Positions 3,600 to 17,883 of a stretch of DNA of 38,240 bases are shown here, piece by piece (the stretch's first letter is position 1; the number at the start of each line of letters is the position of its first letter). Source of the DNA: an uncultured Actinomycetes bacterium. GTDB taxonomy: Bacteria; Actinomycetota; Thermoleophilia; RBG-16-64-13. The notes below the pieces were generated by a model. That model did no database searches, had not been told where the DNA came from, and was given only the letters and a program-made list of their open reading frames with translations. The position numbers were made by a program, and so were the translations under genes. The DNA lies in contig CAIQPS010000084.1 in assembly GCA_903873715.1 (NCBI GenBank), forward strand, positions 1 to 38,240, written 5' to 3'.

Positions 3600-3821
3600 G
3601 TGCAAAAGGTACCAGACACCCGGGAGAACATGGGCCGCTGCATCTGCGGTGGATGCCCGTCGTACCCCGGCGAGGGGGGCTTCTACTGCGCCAAAGGCAA
3701 GAGCGACCTGCCCATCCGGCGGCGCGGCTGTGTGTGCGGCGATTGTGAGAACTTCAGGGCCTACGCGCTCCAGGAGGGCTACTACTGCATCGGTGGGATA
3801 GCGGGCGAGACCGCCCAGTGA
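3600..3821 (+). CDS. Small cysteine-rich protein (DUF2769-like)
   Basis: A 73-residue soluble protein with eight cysteines in a regular pattern: CICGGC near the N-terminus, YCAKGKS, CVCGDC and YYCIGG. Such C-x-C-x2-C repeats suggest zinc or Fe-S binding. From memory the layout resembles the DUF2769 family, which occurs in anaerobes and methanogens and has no established function. The GTG start at 3600 is supported by AAGGAGG five bases upstream, so translation is likely despite the small size. It has its own upstream region and is followed by hairpins before the selenoprotein gene, so it is probably monocistronic. The family name is tentative; the reality of the gene is well supported by the ribosome site and the patterned cysteines. 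Confidence 0.75.
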   Translation: MQKVPDTRENMGRCICGGCPSYPGEGGFYCAKGKSDLPIRRRGCVCGDCENFRAYALQEGYYCIGGIAGETAQ

Positions 3822-3892: not shown

Positions 3893-4011
3893 TACCGTAT
3901 CCCCCCGTTCCTCCGGTTCTGTCTTGCGCCCCTCCGGCGGTGGGCGGCGGAGTCATCCCGCTGGCGGTGCGGCCCCTTCTTCCTGCATAATGGCGGGAAG
4001 GAGGAGACAGA

Positions 4012-4494
4012 ATGGCCCGAGTCGCTCTCGACGTACCCGCTCCGGATTTTCAACTCGCGGACTTCCGCGGTGGTGACTTCCATCTCGCCGATCTGCGGGG
4101 TGCGAGCACCGTCCTGCTCGTGTTCAACCGGGGGTTCATGTGACCCTTCTGCCGCCGGCACATGGCGCAGTTGCGCCAGGACTACGAGAAGTTCGTCTCT
4201 CGTGGCGTCTCGGTCGTCGTGATCGGGCCTGAGGACGCCAAGGCCTTCGCCCGGTACTGGGAGGAGAACGATCTGCCCTTCGTGGGCCTGCCCGACCCCG
4301 AGCACCGAGTGCTCAAGCTGTACGGCCAGGAGATCAAACTCTTCAAGTTCGGCCGCATGCCGGCTCAGGTGCTGGTCGACGGTTCAGGCATCGCCCGGTT
4401 CGTCCATTACGGGCACGACATGAGCGACATCCCGAGCAACGAGGAGATCCTGGGACTCATCGACGGGCTGGACGCGGGCAAGGCCGGCGCATGA
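4012..4494 (+). CDS. Peroxiredoxin-like selenoprotein with in-frame UGA (Sec44)
   Basis: Thioredoxin-fold, AhpC/TSA-type redox protein, 160 residues, probably reducing peroxides or disulfides in the cytosol. The reading frame from ATG 4012 (AAGGAGG nearby) contains a TGA at 4141-4143 and then continues without interruption to 4494. Translating TGA as selenocysteine gives GFM-U-PFCRRHM, a UxxC redox site (U44, C47) exactly where redoxin relatives carry CxxC after the beta-strand STVLLVFNR. Homology runs through both sides of the TGA, and the expected cis-proline region (GRMPAQVLVDGSG) is present. A SECIS-like hairpin follows at 4163-4178. A conventional caller would start at ATG 4162, losing the active site and lacking a ribosome site. 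No selA, selB, selC or selD lies in this window. The alternative is a Cys-to-stop mutation or sequencing error. The stop overlaps the MFS start by 4 bases (ATGA). Confidence 0.85.
4163..4178 (+). promoter_or_regulatory. Putative bacterial SECIS element
   Basis: Six base pairs, U plus GGCGC pairing with GCGCC plus A (4163-4168 with 4173-4178), close a four-base apical loop AGUU. A G sits at loop position 2, followed by U. The loop begins 25 bases after the UGA. Bacterial SECIS elements recognised by SelB lie inside the coding region a few turns after the UGA and carry a conserved G early in the apical loop, which fits. A competing stem nearer the UGA (4149-4170) is possible. Confidence 0.65.
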
Positions 4495-5984
4495 GTGCGG
4501 CGTCCCTGCCGGGAGGGCCCGGCGCGGGGCATGCGGTAACCCCCATGACCGAACTGCAGCGCCGCCGCTGGTACGCGCTCGCGATCATGTCCATCGGGTC
4601 GTTCATGACCCCGTTCGACGCCACCATCGTCGCCGTGGCGCTCCCCAAGATGGGGAAGGCGCTCGCTCTCACCTATTCTGAGGCTCTCTGGGCCCAAGCG
4701 GCTTATCTTCTGGTGGCCAGCATCCTGCTGATCCCCATCGGGCGGTTGGCGGACACCAGGCGCCCCGTGGCATTCAACCTCACCGGCGCCGCGATCTTCG
4801 CAGTCGGCTCGGTGGTCGCCGGGCTGGCGACGAGCCCCGGGATGATGAGCGTCGGGCGATGCATCCAGGGCCTGGGAGGATCGTTCATGTTCTCCACGGC
4901 CAGCGGGATCATCACCGCGGCCTTCCCGCCTGCGGAGCGGGGGAAGGCTCTGGGTCTCAACGTGAGCGGCGTCTATCTGGGCCTCACGCTCGGGCCGGTC
5001 GTCGGCGGTGTCATCTCGAACGTCAGCGCGGGCAGTTGGCGCTGGATCTTCTTCATCAACGTGCCCATCGCGGTGATCACCATACTGGCCGGCTGGACGC
5101 TGCTCCGGGCCGAGGGCCGCGACCGCAGGGGCGTGCCGAAGTCGCCTGCGCACATCGACTGGGCGGGGGCCGCGCTCCTGGGCGCCGTCCTGGTCGCCCT
5201 GTTCGTCCCGCTCACGTTCTCACCGCTGTGGGGATGGGCGAGCGCCCGCACGCTCGTACCGCTGGCGCTCACCGTCGTGTTCCTGGCCGCCTTCGTGCTC
5301 GTGGAGCGTAAAGTGGAGCAGCCGGTGGTGCCGCTTGGGCTGGTCACCAAGAACCGGGCCTTCGCGGCAGGTAACTCCGCCGCCCTGCTCAACTATCTGG
5401 CCGTCTTCGCCGTGGCCACGCTGGTGGCCGTCTATCTCGAGGTCGTCGACGGCTATTCTCCCCAGCAGACCGGCCTCCTCCTGCTGATCCAACCCGTCAT
5501 CATGGCCGTGCTCTCGCCGCTGACGGGCAGGCTGTCGGACAAGGTGGGGTCCAGGGTGCTCGCGACCGCCGGGATGGTGCTGGTGGCGGCCGGCATGGCG
5601 CAACTCGCGTTCATCGGGGATTCGCTCGGGCGCGTACTCCCGGCCCTGGGTACCATCGGGATCGGGATGGCCATCTTCAGCGCGCCCAACATCTCCGCCG
5701 TCATGGGGTCCGTGGACAGGTCGCAACTCAACCTGGCTTCGGGCTTCCTCGCCACCATGCGGTTCGCCGGCCAGGGGCTGTCTATCGCCGTGCTCGGATC
5801 GATCGCGGCGTGGCGGCTCGGGGCGACGGGTGCGCGGGTCATCTTCTTCGGTGAGAAGGGCGACGCCGTGCACGTGCAGGCCTTCGCGGACGGTTTCCGG
5901 ACCGCCATGATCGTCGGGGCCTGTCTTGCCCTGGCGGGCGCCATCCTCTCCTGGTTGGCTCGGCTGGAGCGGCAACACCACTAG
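4491..5984 (+). CDS. MFS transporter, DHA2 (EmrB/QacA-like) family
   Basis: A 497-residue inner-membrane proton-driven exporter, probably of drugs or other amphipathic compounds. It shows about 14 hydrophobic helices, the DHA2 hallmark FDATIVAVALPKM in TM1, a motif-A-like loop (IGRLADTRRPV), the antiporter motif-C region LGPVVGGVIS, and the typical WRWIFFINVPI segment before TM6. The chosen ATG overlaps the selenoprotein stop (ATGA), implying translational coupling; an in-frame ATG at 4545 (MTELQRRR) is an alternative giving a tighter N-terminus. The substrate cannot be told from sequence. Coupling to a redox selenoprotein hints at a shared stress response, but this is inference. Confidence 0.88.
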   Translation: MSAASLPGGPGAGHAVTPMTELQRRRWYALAIMSIGSFMTPFDATIVAVALPKMGKALALTYSEALWAQAAYLLVASILLIPIGRLADTRRPVAFNLTGAAIFAVGSVVAGLATSPGMMSVGRCIQGLGGSFMFSTASGIITAAFPPAERGKALGLNVSGVYLGLTLGPVVGGVISNVSAGSWRWIFFINVPIAVITILAGWTLLRAEGRDRRGVPKSPAHIDWAGAALLGAVLVALFVPLTFSPLWGWASARTLVPLALTVVFLAAFVLVERKVEQPVVPLGLVTKNRAFAAGNSAALLNYLAVFAVATLVAVYLEVVDGYSPQQTGLLLLIQPVIMAVLSPLTGRLSDKVGSRVLATAGMVLVAAGMAQLAFIGDSLGRVLPALGTIGIGMAIFSAPNISAVMGSVDRSQLNLASGFLATMRFAGQGLSIAVLGSIAAWRLGATGARVIFFGEKGDAVHVQAFADGFRTAMIVGACLALAGAILSWLARLERQHH

Positions 5985-13333: not shown

Positions 13334-14347
13334 ATGGGCAACAAGGTATTTGTCGATCTGAGTCACCCGTTCAGCGCTGAGTGCCCGCGCTGGCCCTATT
13401 TCGACAAGCCGGAAGTCACGAGCGCTCATACGATGGCCAAGAGTGGTGTTCTGACCCAATGGATCAACGTGCCGCAGCACACCGGCACGCACTGCGATGC
13501 GCCGCGCCACGTCATGGAGTACGAATTCGACGGTCGCCGTGCCCGCTACACCCACGAGATGCCCATCGACGCCTACACCGGCAACGCCGTCTGCCTCAAG
13601 ATCGAGGTCGAGCCCTGGGGGCTCATCGGCCCGAGCGACCTGGAGGCCGGCTGCGCGAAAGCCGGCATCGACCCGGGTGAGTTGGCCGGCATGGTCCTGG
13701 TGCTCGACACCGGCATGCACAAGTATTACGACGATTCCAAGGCCTACTATCACTACGCCTGCGGCACGGGTGTGGAAGCCGGGCGCTGGTTCGTGAAGCA
13801 CAAGGTCAAGTGCGTGGCCATGGACGGGCAGGCCCTGGACCACCCGCTCCATACCGCTATGGGCCTCAACGGCGGCACGCGCCTCAACCTGCTCGGCCAC
13901 ACAGGCCAGCCCCTCACCGAGGAATACACGCAGCTCTTCGGGAAGGAAGCCTTCGCCGAATTCGACAAGTTCGAGTACATCAAGCTCCACGGCCAGGCCG
14001 CCTACGACGCGAAATACGGCGACCTTGAAGAGAACAGCGGCTGGGGCACCTGGGAGCCTTGCCACAAGCTGATGCTGGGGAACGGCATAGTGGGTGTCGA
14101 GAACCTGGGCGGCGACCTCGCGAAGGTGAGCGGCAAGCGCTTCAGGTTCTTCTGCTTCCCCATGCGCTGGTACATGGGCGACGGATCCATCGCGCGCTGC
14201 ATCTGTGAGATCGATGAGGACGATCTGAACGACGTCCCGACCAGGGACTATTTCTATGCCGGCACGGGCTACGCCGACGGGGCCCACGGCGGCGCCAACG
14301 GCGGCGAGTACATCAAGCGCCTGTTCGGCAGGAACAAGAGCAAGTAA
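13334..14347 (+). CDS. Cyclase-family metal-dependent hydrolase
   Basis: A 337-residue protein of the cyclase/kynurenine-formamidase/isatin-hydrolase family. The metal-binding signature HTGTHCDAPRH is at residues 49-59 (family motif HxGTHxDxPxH). Members hydrolyse amide or ring bonds next to carbonyls using Mn or Zn. AAGGAG precedes ATG 13334. It is the first gene of the operon with the transhydroxylase-like molybdoenzyme, 36 bases ahead of it, downstream of a TetR-type operator. In this setting a ring-opening hydrolase acting on a reduced or oxidised phenolic ring product is an attractive guess; the phloroglucinol route needs a dihydrophloroglucinol cyclohydrolase. The family assignment is firm, the substrate is inference. 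Confidence 0.88.
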   Translation: MGNKVFVDLSHPFSAECPRWPYFDKPEVTSAHTMAKSGVLTQWINVPQHTGTHCDAPRHVMEYEFDGRRARYTHEMPIDAYTGNAVCLKIEVEPWGLIGPSDLEAGCAKAGIDPGELAGMVLVLDTGMHKYYDDSKAYYHYACGTGVEAGRWFVKHKVKCVAMDGQALDHPLHTAMGLNGGTRLNLLGHTGQPLTEEYTQLFGKEAFAEFDKFEYIKLHGQAAYDAKYGDLEENSGWGTWEPCHKLMLGNGIVGVENLGGDLAKVSGKRFRFFCFPMRWYMGDGSIARCICEIDEDDLNDVPTRDYFYAGTGYADGAHGGANGGEYIKRLFGRNKSK

Positions 14348-14383
14348 CCCGGCCGCATCGGGACATCAAGGGGGAACGTCGGT

Positions 14384-17035
14384 ATGGGAGACGTGAAGAG
14401 GTACACCAACGGCACCACCGGGGGACCGGTGTTCGTGGACGTCAAGGACGGGAAGATCCTGCGCATCCTCCCGATGACGTTCGACGATTCGGACGCCCCG
14501 TCGTGGACCATCGATGCCCGCGGGCGGGCGTTCACGCCGCCGCGCAGGGCGGCAGTCTCGCCGTGGACGGTGGCTCACCGTTCCACCATCTACTCGCCCA
14601 AGCGGATCCTCACCCCGCTCAAGCGGGTGGACTTCGATCCCAAGGGCGCGCGGAACATCCAGAACCGCGGCGTGTCCGGGTATGAGCCCATCAGCTGGGA
14701 CGAGGCCTTCGAGATGGTGGCGGACGAGATCGTCCGCATCCACCGGGAGGTCGGCCCGGCAGGCGTGATGTCCACTCCGGGGTCCCACCACATGTGGGGC
14801 AACGTGGGCTATCGGCACAGCACCCTGTTCCGCTTCCTCAACCTCATCGGCTACACCTATGCCGAGCACAACCCGGACAGCTGGGAAGGCTGGCACTGGG
14901 GCGCCATGCACATGTGGGGCTTCAGCCACCGCCTGGGCATCCCCGAGCAGTACGGGCTCTTGGAGGACGCCCTCAAGAACACCGAGATGATCGTCTACTG
15001 GTCTGCGGACCCGGAGTCCAGCTGCACCGGCGTCTACGGCGGCAACGAGGGCAACATCCGCAGGCGGTGGCTCAAAGAGCTCGGCGTCAAGATGATCGTC
15101 ATCGACCCGTATCTCAACCACACCCAGGCGCTCATCGGCGACAAGTGGTTCTCGCCGCGCCTGGGCACCGACGTGGCCATGGGCCTGGCGATCGCCTACA
15201 CGTGGCTCACCGAGGGCACCTACGACAAGGAATACATCGCCACCAGGTCCACCGGCTTCGACGAGTGGAAGGACTACGTCCTGGGCAAGACGGACAACGT
15301 CCCGAAGTCTCCCGAGTGGGCGCAGCAGGAGAGTGGCATCCCCGCCCGCGAGATCAGGGCGCTGGCCCGCGAATGGGCTTCCAAGAAGACGATGCTGGCG
15401 GCCGGCGGGCCGGGCGGCATGGGCGGAGCCAGCCGGGCGGCCTCCGGGAACGAGTGGGCGCGCACCATGGTGGCCCTGGCCGCCATGCAGGGGCTGGGCA
15501 AGCCGGGCAGCAACATCTGGGGCACCACGAGCGGCGTCCCGCTCGACTGCGGCTTCATGTTCCCGGGCTACGCCGAAGGCGGCATCTCCGGCGACACGGC
15601 CAACTCGGCCGCCGGTTTCCGCTTCGTCAACCGGATGTTCCCCAACGGGGGCGGGATCACCAACCCGCACCACACCACCGAAGGCCAGACCGTCCCGCGC
15701 CTGCGCATCCCTGAGGCGATGCGCCACGAGACCGTCGAATGGCGGGGCAAGGGCTTCTGCGGCTCCCACATCGAGAGCCAGTTCCAGAAGTACGAGTATC
15801 CGGCGCAAGGCTATCCGCAGGTGGAGATGTACTACCGCTACGGTGGCTCCTTCTTCGGGACGATGACCGAGACCAACCGGTACGTCACCGCCTACCGCGA
15901 AGGCAAGGTGCCCTTCGTGGTGAACCAGGCCATCTGGTTCGAGGGGGAGACCAAGTTCGCCGACGTCATCCTGCCGGCCTGCACCAACTTCGAGCGCTAC
16001 GACATCAGCGAGGGGGCCAACTGCTCGGGCTACATCTCGGATTCGTATACGTTCGCCAATCACAGGGTCATCGTGTTCCAGCAGAAATGCATCGAACCGC
16101 TGGGCGATTCGAAGTCCGACTACGCGATCTTCGAGGGGTTGGCGGACCGGCTGGGTCTGTGGGGGCCGTTCACCATGGGCGGCAAGACCGAGCTCGACTG
16201 GGTCAAGGACTACTACAACGCCACGGACATGCCCAAGGTCATGCCGTGGGACGAGTTCGCCGAGAAGGGCTACTACGTGGTGCCTTCCCCGGCGCCGGAG
16301 GACCGGCCCAAGCCCGCGTTGCGCTGGTTCGCGGAGGACCGTCCCAAGGACACGCCCGACTGGGGCCCGGCCCCCTGGGACCAGGTAAAAGGCGCAGGCC
16401 TGCAGACCATGAGCGGCAAGATCGAGTTCGTCGCGTCCAGCCTGAAGCGCCTGGAAGCCACCGGCACGGTGGACCCCGAGCGCCCGGCGATGGGCCCGCA
16501 GTACTTCGAGAGCTGGGAGGGCCACCACACCGCCGATCTCTACGGCCGTTATCCGCTGCAACTGGTCTCGCCGCATCCCAAGTTCAGCTTCCACACCATG
16601 GGAGACGCCAAGGACTCGTGGATGAACGAGGTCAAGGACAACCGGGTGCTCGTCGATGGCCACTTCTACTGGATCATGCGGGTGAACGCCAAGGACGCGG
16701 CCGAGCGCGGCATCGCCGACGGCGACCTCGTGCGCGCGTTCAACGACCGCGGATCGGTGATCCTGTACGCGCAGGTGACTGAGCGCGTCCCACCGGGGAC
16801 GGTACATTCGTACGAATCCTCGGGCGACTACCAGGCCCTGGGCGAACCGGGCCACTCGCCCGACATAGCCGGGTGCGTGAACATCCTGACACCCAAGCGG
16901 TTCATCACGCCGACCTCCACCGCCATGGCGAACAACTCCTGCCTCATCGAGGTGGAGAAGTGGGGTGGCGCGGCAGGTAGCGCGGCAGCGGGCGGAGCCG
17001 GGAAGAACGGCGCCGTGAAAGAGGGGGTGGCCTGA
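14384..17035 (+). CDS. athL: Transhydroxylase-like molybdopterin oxidoreductase, large subunit
   Basis: An 883-residue DMSO-reductase-family molybdenum (or tungsten) enzyme. It lacks the N-terminal Cys motif for a 4Fe-4S cluster, as does the alpha subunit of pyrogallol-phloroglucinol transhydroxylase (about 875 residues). Active-site residues reported for that enzyme align in register: H135 (His144), Y143-R144 (Tyr152-Arg153), D165-S166 (Asp174 and the Mo ligand Ser175), W167 (Trp176) and Y396 in FPGYAEGG (Tyr404). There is no Tat signal, so it is cytosolic. A GGGGGAA site precedes ATG 14384. It is translationally coupled to the FeS subunit (TGATG). The reaction is likely hydroxyl transfer between, or dehydroxylation of, polyphenols. 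Catechol dehydroxylases and acetylene hydratase are relatives, so the exact substrate is uncertain. Confidence 0.85.
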   Translation: MGDVKRYTNGTTGGPVFVDVKDGKILRILPMTFDDSDAPSWTIDARGRAFTPPRRAAVSPWTVAHRSTIYSPKRILTPLKRVDFDPKGARNIQNRGVSGYEPISWDEAFEMVADEIVRIHREVGPAGVMSTPGSHHMWGNVGYRHSTLFRFLNLIGYTYAEHNPDSWEGWHWGAMHMWGFSHRLGIPEQYGLLEDALKNTEMIVYWSADPESSCTGVYGGNEGNIRRRWLKELGVKMIVIDPYLNHTQALIGDKWFSPRLGTDVAMGLAIAYTWLTEGTYDKEYIATRSTGFDEWKDYVLGKTDNVPKSPEWAQQESGIPAREIRALAREWASKKTMLAAGGPGGMGGASRAASGNEWARTMVALAAMQGLGKPGSNIWGTTSGVPLDCGFMFPGYAEGGISGDTANSAAGFRFVNRMFPNGGGITNPHHTTEGQTVPRLRIPEAMRHETVEWRGKGFCGSHIESQFQKYEYPAQGYPQVEMYYRYGGSFFGTMTETNRYVTAYREGKVPFVVNQAIWFEGETKFADVILPACTNFERYDISEGANCSGYISDSYTFANHRVIVFQQKCIEPLGDSKSDYAIFEGLADRLGLWGPFTMGGKTELDWVKDYYNATDMPKVMPWDEFAEKGYYVVPSPAPEDRPKPALRWFAEDRPKDTPDWGPAPWDQVKGAGLQTMSGKIEFVASSLKRLEATGTVDPERPAMGPQYFESWEGHHTADLYGRYPLQLVSPHPKFSFHTMGDAKDSWMNEVKDNRVLVDGHFYWIMRVNAKDAAERGIADGDLVRAFNDRGSVILYAQVTERVPPGTVHSYESSGDYQALGEPGHSPDIAGCVNILTPKRFITPTSTAMANNSCLIEVEKWGGAAGSAAAGGAGKNGAVKEGVA

Positions 17036-17883
17036 TGGCCAAGAAATGGAACCTCGTCATCGACGTGAGCCGCTGCATGGACTGCAATGACTGCTTCCTG
17101 GCCGACAAGGATGAGTTCACCGGCAACGACTTCCCGCCGTATTCGGTGGCCCAGCCGTGGAGCGGCCACCGCTGGATGAACATCATGCGCACCGAGCGGG
17201 GGCAGTACCCCCTGGTGCAGGTGGCCTACAGGCCGACGCCCTGCCTGCATTGCGACGACGCGCCGTGCATCGCCAAGTCGCCGGCCGGCACCGTGTTCAA
17301 GCGCGAAGACGGCTTGGTCATCATCGATCCGGTGAAGGCCAAGGGCCACCCGGAGATCGTGGCCACCTGCCCGTACGAGGTCATCTACTGGAACGAGGAA
17401 GCCCAGGTGGCGCAGAAGTGCACCGGCTGCGCCCACCTCATCGACGAGGGCTGGACCGACACCCGCTGCTCCCAGGTATGCCCGGCCGAGGCCATCAAGC
17501 TGGTGTTCGCCGACGACGCCGAGATGGCGGCAAAGGCCGCCGCGGAGGGGTTGGAGGTGCTGCGGCCGGAGTTGGGCGCGAAGCCGCGTGTGTATTACAA
17601 GGACCTGTATCTGTTCGACAAGGCCTTCATCGCCGCCAGCCTGGCGTTCGGGGACACGGACGAGTGCGCCGAGGGGGCGAGGGTGACCGTCAGCGAGACG
17701 TCCGGCGGAGCTGTGGTGGGCGAGGCTGTGGCCAGCAACTACGGTGATTTCTACGTGGACAAGCTCGTCCCCGGCAAGGAATACGGGGTCACGATAGAGG
17801 CGCCGGGCTACGCGCCGGCGACGCGCATCATCAACCTCGATAAGAGCGTGAACCTGGGGACGATCGTGCTCGGCCGGCCGTAG
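17035..17883 (+). CDS. athS: Transhydroxylase-like Fe-S subunit with C-terminal beta domain
   Basis: A 282-residue electron-transfer subunit (transhydroxylase beta subunit is about 274). The first 160 residues carry cysteines C14, C17, C20; C70, C73, C78; C112; C129, C132, C145 and C149, enough for nearly three 4Fe-4S clusters. The position expected for the fourth Cys of the second group is Ser82, leaving eleven. Residues about 195-282 form a carboxypeptidase-regulatory/Cna-B-like beta domain (NYGDFYVDKLVPGKEYGVTIEAPGY), the same unusual tail found on the transhydroxylase small subunit and absent from ordinary DmsB-type proteins. It overlaps the large-subunit stop by one base and is followed by a terminator, ending the operon. 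Confidence 0.85.
   Translation: MAKKWNLVIDVSRCMDCNDCFLADKDEFTGNDFPPYSVAQPWSGHRWMNIMRTERGQYPLVQVAYRPTPCLHCDDAPCIAKSPAGTVFKREDGLVIIDPVKAKGHPEIVATCPYEVIYWNEEAQVAQKCTGCAHLIDEGWTDTRCSQVCPAEAIKLVFADDAEMAAKAAAEGLEVLRPELGAKPRVYYKDLYLFDKAFIAASLAFGDTDECAEGARVTVSETSGGAVVGEAVASNYGDFYVDKLVPGKEYGVTIEAPGYAPATRIINLDKSVNLGTIVLGRP

Follow-up and report, generated by a model that had tools for sequence, protein, structure and literature searches.

Prx-like thiol:disulfide oxidoreductase selenoproteins with a UxxC motif and a PF00578 domain have been known since the mid-2000s (PMC1088965, PMC1794560, PMC2398784), and are included in a 2026 inventory (PMC13188914); the organisms reported to have them include Syntrophus aciditrophicus and Geobacter (PMC1794560). 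In Sec-containing peroxiredoxins, Sec occupies the other position of the motif, TxxU (PMC13188914). The published model of bacterial SECIS elements comprises a stem of 4-16 bp, a loop of 3-9 nt with a G in its first two positions, a distance of 16-37 nt from the UGA to the loop, and an energy of at most -7.5 (PMC13188914).

Here, we analyzed a stretch of 38,240 nucleotides (hereafter, the window) from an uncultured Actinomycetes bacterium of the Thermoleophilia, in which a gene is predicted to encode a protein of this kind. It has in common with the described Prx-like selenoproteins the Prx-like fold, the UxxC motif, PF00578, and a downstream bacterial SECIS, and by these stated features the predicted Sec-containing Prx-fold UxxC oxidoreductase joins them; its likeness to published members (e.g., WP_010940744.1) is one of stated features and descriptions only. 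Syntrophaceae carry close relatives of the window protein, and published Prx-like members include that of Syntrophus aciditrophicus. The Pfam family and the fold are also common to the Sec-containing peroxiredoxins, but PxxxT is missing in the window protein.

Among curated models, the best NCBIfam match is NF040769 (SelL-related redox protein; residues 9-105), which is also matched by 19 of 20 aligned members. However, this match scores 79.9 bits where the curated cut-off is 120 bits, and the window protein passes the cut-off of no NCBIfam model; its branch is possibly an unmodelled subfamily. SelL itself has UxxU, whereas the window protein has UxxC. With the ResA/TlpA thiol-disulfide oxidoreductases it has in common a CxxC-type site at the start of a helix, and sequence matches range from E ~5e-8 to 9e-4, but the structural match is poorer than that to BCP-type peroxiredoxins. 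ResA is membrane-anchored, whereas no N-terminal membrane anchor was seen in the window protein.

Reading frame and candidate selenocysteine codon

The preliminary description of this DNA had proposed a frame from ATG 4012 with one TGA at the first position of a U-P-F-C site. Direct reading and translation confirmed this: the TGA of codon 44 is the single one in frame within 4012-4491, the read-through sequence runs ...NRGFMUPFCRR..., and U44 and C47 are, methionines aside, the sole chalcogen residues of the recoded protein (Table 1). The claimed AAGGAGG ahead of 4012 and the lack of a ribosome-binding site ahead of the internal ATG 4162 were both seen in the sequence, and redox-fold sequence does flank the UGA on either side, with an AhpC/TSA-redoxin match over residues 9-129.

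Table 1 Features at the candidate selenoprotein locus, in window positions
Feature	Position	Strand	Basis
Shine-Dalgarno sequence AAGGAGG	3998..4004	+	7 nt upstream of ATG 4012; read directly in sequence
Predicted selenoprotein CDS, 160 aa	4012..4494	+	Read-through translation; Pfam AhpC-TSA; family alignment; stop TGA 4492-4494
UGA codon, predicted Sec, residue 44, position 1 of U-P-F-C	4141..4143	+	TGA in 38/38 close-subfamily sequences with readable codon 44; Sec machinery
TGC codon, Cys47, putative resolving residue of UxxC	4150..4152	+	Cys at this codon in all 38 close-subfamily sequences
Candidate bacterial SECIS hairpin, stem TGGCGC (4163-4168)/GCGCCA (4173-4178), loop AGTT (4169-4172)	4163..4178	+	Fold; synonymous freeze at codons 52-54
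MFS transporter gene	4491..5984	+	Pfam MFS_1, E 2.1e-54; ATG overlaps selenoprotein stop (ATGA)

The gene very probably encodes a full-length redox protein that inserts selenocysteine at the UGA in its active site. Our main reading, to which we give a probability of about 0.96, is a Prx-fold oxidoreductase of 160 residues with Sec44 decoded through SelB and the hairpin at 4163-4178. When the ribosome reaches the UGA, SelB with Sec-tRNA-Sec would be bound to this hairpin of the mRNA and would deliver Sec there in place of termination. Together with established bacterial selenoprotein biology, the computed frame, the conserved UGA, the conserved hairpin, the Sec machinery, and the predicted fold point to actual Sec insertion.

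Selenocysteine machinery in the genome

The preliminary description had called for a search for the Sec machinery, and held that a genome without it would contradict the proposal. Searched family by family, the assembly that contains the window (96.9% complete) was found to encode selA (545 bits), selB (303 bits, cut by the contig end), selD (379 bits), and tRNA-Sec (77.5 bits, anticodon TCA). The selD gene (L010, G000:C128:30662-31585) has its own in-frame TGA, in GSGUACK, and under the same rules a 7-bp hairpin with the G-first loop GGAC 20 nt downstream of that TGA, and it serves as an internal positive control. A search of the genome for a further copy of the window's selenoprotein gene found none.

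Across the class, the full gene is present in 14 of 299 genomes, and 11 of these 14 have selA (kinship ignored). Among the carriers with at least 87% completeness, selA was found in 11 of 11, compared with 150 of the 299 genomes overall; the carriers without detected selA (G404, G413, and G445) are 76-86% complete.

Conservation of the UGA codon among relatives

A scan of species genomes yielded 32 relatives at 57-74% identity, by short exact peptide patterns that can miss relatives, and more came from a family search. Codon 44 is TGA in all 37 relatives in which it is readable, which with the window sequence makes 38 of 38, or 35 loci after removal of evident duplicates, and Cys47 is invariant in the same set. 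Five further relatives, each with one TGA, came from the class search. The hosts of this close subfamily are Gaiellales-type Actinomycetota, Anaerolineae and other Chloroflexota, and deltaproteobacterial Syntrophaceae/Smithella, and no Cys form at residue 44 was present in the close subfamily among the searched sets. In more distant relatives, at 30-40% identity, the aligned codon is TGA in some and TGC/TGT in others. The question of what fills residue 44 in homologues, raised in the preliminary description, thus has a uniform answer: every recoded homologue has TGA or Cys. The tree requires three changes to explain the Cys state; well-supported branches force two or more of these, with long branches making the deep joins unsure.

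With somewhat less than even odds, these proteins may form a distinct Prx-fold subfamily known only as a Sec form. Such a subfamily would span Actinomycetota, Chloroflexota, and deltaproteobacteria, would have a virtually invariant SECIS and no curated model, and for that reason would be truncated or overlooked in public annotation. With no Cys form found in the searched sets, the close subfamily lends itself to asking why certain enzymes appear to require selenium.

Some loci carry degraded or partial sequences. In L089 (1500-1680, reverse strand; G399:C97), the N-terminal start SKVELGMPAPDFTLE is fused in frame to the C-terminal part, and the entire active site, the UGA, and the SECIS are absent, through decay or an assembly artefact. 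A C-terminal fragment (residues 102-156) that lacks the N-terminal half, an apparent remnant, lies in a Thermoleophilia genome (L081, 4000-4177; L095). A second, truncated copy at L096 (986-1260; G389:C77) has UPYS, with Ser for the resolving Cys; its SECIS stem UGGCGC-AGUU-GCGCCA is intact and its protein similarity stops after about residue 75.

The hairpin and its synonymous freeze

The hairpin downstream of the UGA has a 6-bp stem and an energy of -10.0 kcal/mol, with the stem starting 19 nt and the loop 25 nt past the UGA. All constraints of the published SECIS model hold for it, including that on the G, found here at position 2 of the loop AGUU. The 6-bp stem and the AGUU loop had been described correctly; the 25 bases given for the stem are in fact the distance to the loop, and the G does not open the loop as claimed, although its place is permitted by the published rule (PMC13188914).

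In a single genome, the hairpin is unexceptional in stability for GC-rich DNA: one equally stable occurs at 4% of window positions and in 8.7% of synonymous recodings, and the 45-nt fold around it has z = -0.68 (single sequence). No SECIS match was obtained in Rfam at gathering or E-value thresholds. The hairpin exceeds chance because it is conserved across relatives. As raw conserved-codon counts first and codon-usage-corrected counts thereafter revealed, the codons of Ala52 (GCG), Gln53 (CAG), and Leu54 (TTG) have zero synonymous change among relatives. Synonymous heterozygosity is 0.00 at all three, against expected values of 0.72, 0.40, and 0.74 (z = -19, -6, and -17), and averages 0.58 across 130 other codons. 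TTG makes up 5% of the Leu codons in the window's genes, yet it is fixed at Leu54, and the frozen bases coincide exactly with the inner stem and loop. On this comparative evidence, we consider the conservation across relatives decisive for an RNA element.

Pair changes in the nearly frozen hairpin of the close subfamily are one-sided only, with no double compensatory ones. A distant Sec subfamily has GUAUAUG-GGU-CAUAUAC at nearly the same place (loop at +21). One sequence of this subfamily has C-G in place of a paired U-A, and another has G-C in place of a paired A-U, with both bases of the pair changed each time. The hairpin of a third subfamily, AGCU-GGUC-AGCU, is shorter and scored weakly in the contiguous-stem scan. 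Among the six Cys relatives, a qualifying hairpin is missing from three and lies elsewhere in two, while one (L048) retains the AGCU form; the family hairpin is absent in five of the six. As a control, this pattern is suggestive, not strong.

Predicted fold and putative activity

The Pfam AhpC-TSA match (E 5.3e-21) reaches 75.3 bits against a cut-off of 26. An AlphaFold model built with 46 sequences has a mean pLDDT of 87.2 and places residue 44 immediately ahead of helix 45-56, and the best PDB match is the BCP-type peroxiredoxin Bcp1 (3drn, TM 0.82). Both a PF00578 domain and a UxxC site (U44-P-F-C47) are present. The classical peroxiredoxin motif PxxxT/SxxC(U) is not: the protein reads R40-G-F-M-U44-P-F-C47, with Arg40 for Pro, Sec44 for Thr, and Cys47 at the position of the peroxidatic Cys. 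The earlier label "peroxiredoxin-like" is therefore apt for the fold but not for the active site, which has a thioredoxin-like UxxC instead of the peroxiredoxin motif.

In the proposed mechanism, Sec44, ahead of the first active-site helix, would act as the nucleophile and Cys47 would resolve it as a selenenylsulfide; the resulting activity may be disulfide reduction, and possibly peroxide reduction. These roles and the substrate are suggested by sequence and model, and the UxxC motif points to a disulfide reductase. Within the Sec explanation, the protein could still be a true selenoprotein whose function is that of a peroxidase (peroxiredoxin) and not of a disulfide reductase. In structure it matches the peroxiredoxin fold best, AhpC-TSA is the best Pfam match, and the peroxidatic Cys position is kept as Cys47, but we consider this unlikely given the missing PxxxT/SxxC and the thioredoxin-like arrangement of UxxC.

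Alternative readings of the UGA

The TGA is one base from TGC or TGT, and degraded relatives exist (the internal deletion in L089, the fragments in L081/L095), so that a broken gene or a sequencing error, with TGA as a nonsense mutation of a Cys codon, could be imagined. Sequencing error cannot account for a TGA that recurs as the same codon in 37 other relatives from several phyla. Further, the downstream frame is conserved as protein and, this TGA apart, stays open up to the C-terminal end. A pseudogene or error was rejected, its probability being negligible, since the TGA is conserved with purifying selection on both sides. The ORF 4162-4494, which begins at M51, a residue that the close subfamily keeps, would also allow two products, a 43-aa peptide and a 110-aa protein from the internal ATG. 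This is highly improbable: in addition to the missing ribosome-binding site, T. roseum has CTG at that codon, the split would fall within a single thioredoxin fold and part a strand from the active-site helix, and the freeze at codons 52-54 suits an RNA element and is needless for a start site.

UGA is reassigned in some bacterial lineages, and the codon might accordingly be decoded as a residue other than Sec, such as Trp or Cys, or be passed by plain read-through. However, TGA is the normal stop of other genes in the window, of the selenoprotein gene itself, and of the small ORF upstream; the genome has a complete Sec apparatus; and aligned homologues have Cys, the residue that Sec replaces. 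We regard non-Sec decoding as exceedingly improbable and retain insertion of selenocysteine as the preferred reading.

Truncated annotation in Thermomicrobium roseum

The preliminary description had predicted that standard annotation would truncate such a protein, and this was seen directly in a RefSeq-derived entry of Thermomicrobium roseum. Its copy, the closest relative on an annotated plasmid record (NC_011961.1; L097, 1471-1599), is 45% identical, has UPYC, and carries the hairpin CUGGCGCAGUUGCGCCAG, the same as the family hairpin. At this place the annotation gives nothing but WP_012643006.1, a "hypothetical protein" of 42 residues with a CDS that stops at the UGA; this entry corresponds to the N-terminal part, cut off at that codon, of a selenoprotein of the same kind. 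Reading through the UGA recovers a real active-site protein where gene callers stop, and the family alignment and SECIS are now available as the basis for a curated model.

Genomic neighbourhood

The MFS transporter gene is probably cotranscribed with the selenoprotein gene. It lies outside any conserved unit, as the neighbours are not conserved among relatives: no gene cluster is common to more than 5 of 34 relatives, and thus no operon function can be inferred. A small Cys-rich ORF of 73 aa (3600-3821) lies just upstream of the selenoprotein gene. Elsewhere in the window, positions 13334-17883 consecutively encode a putative cyclase, a molybdopterin oxidoreductase with a pyrogallol hydroxytransferase-like domain, and a 4Fe-4S subunit.
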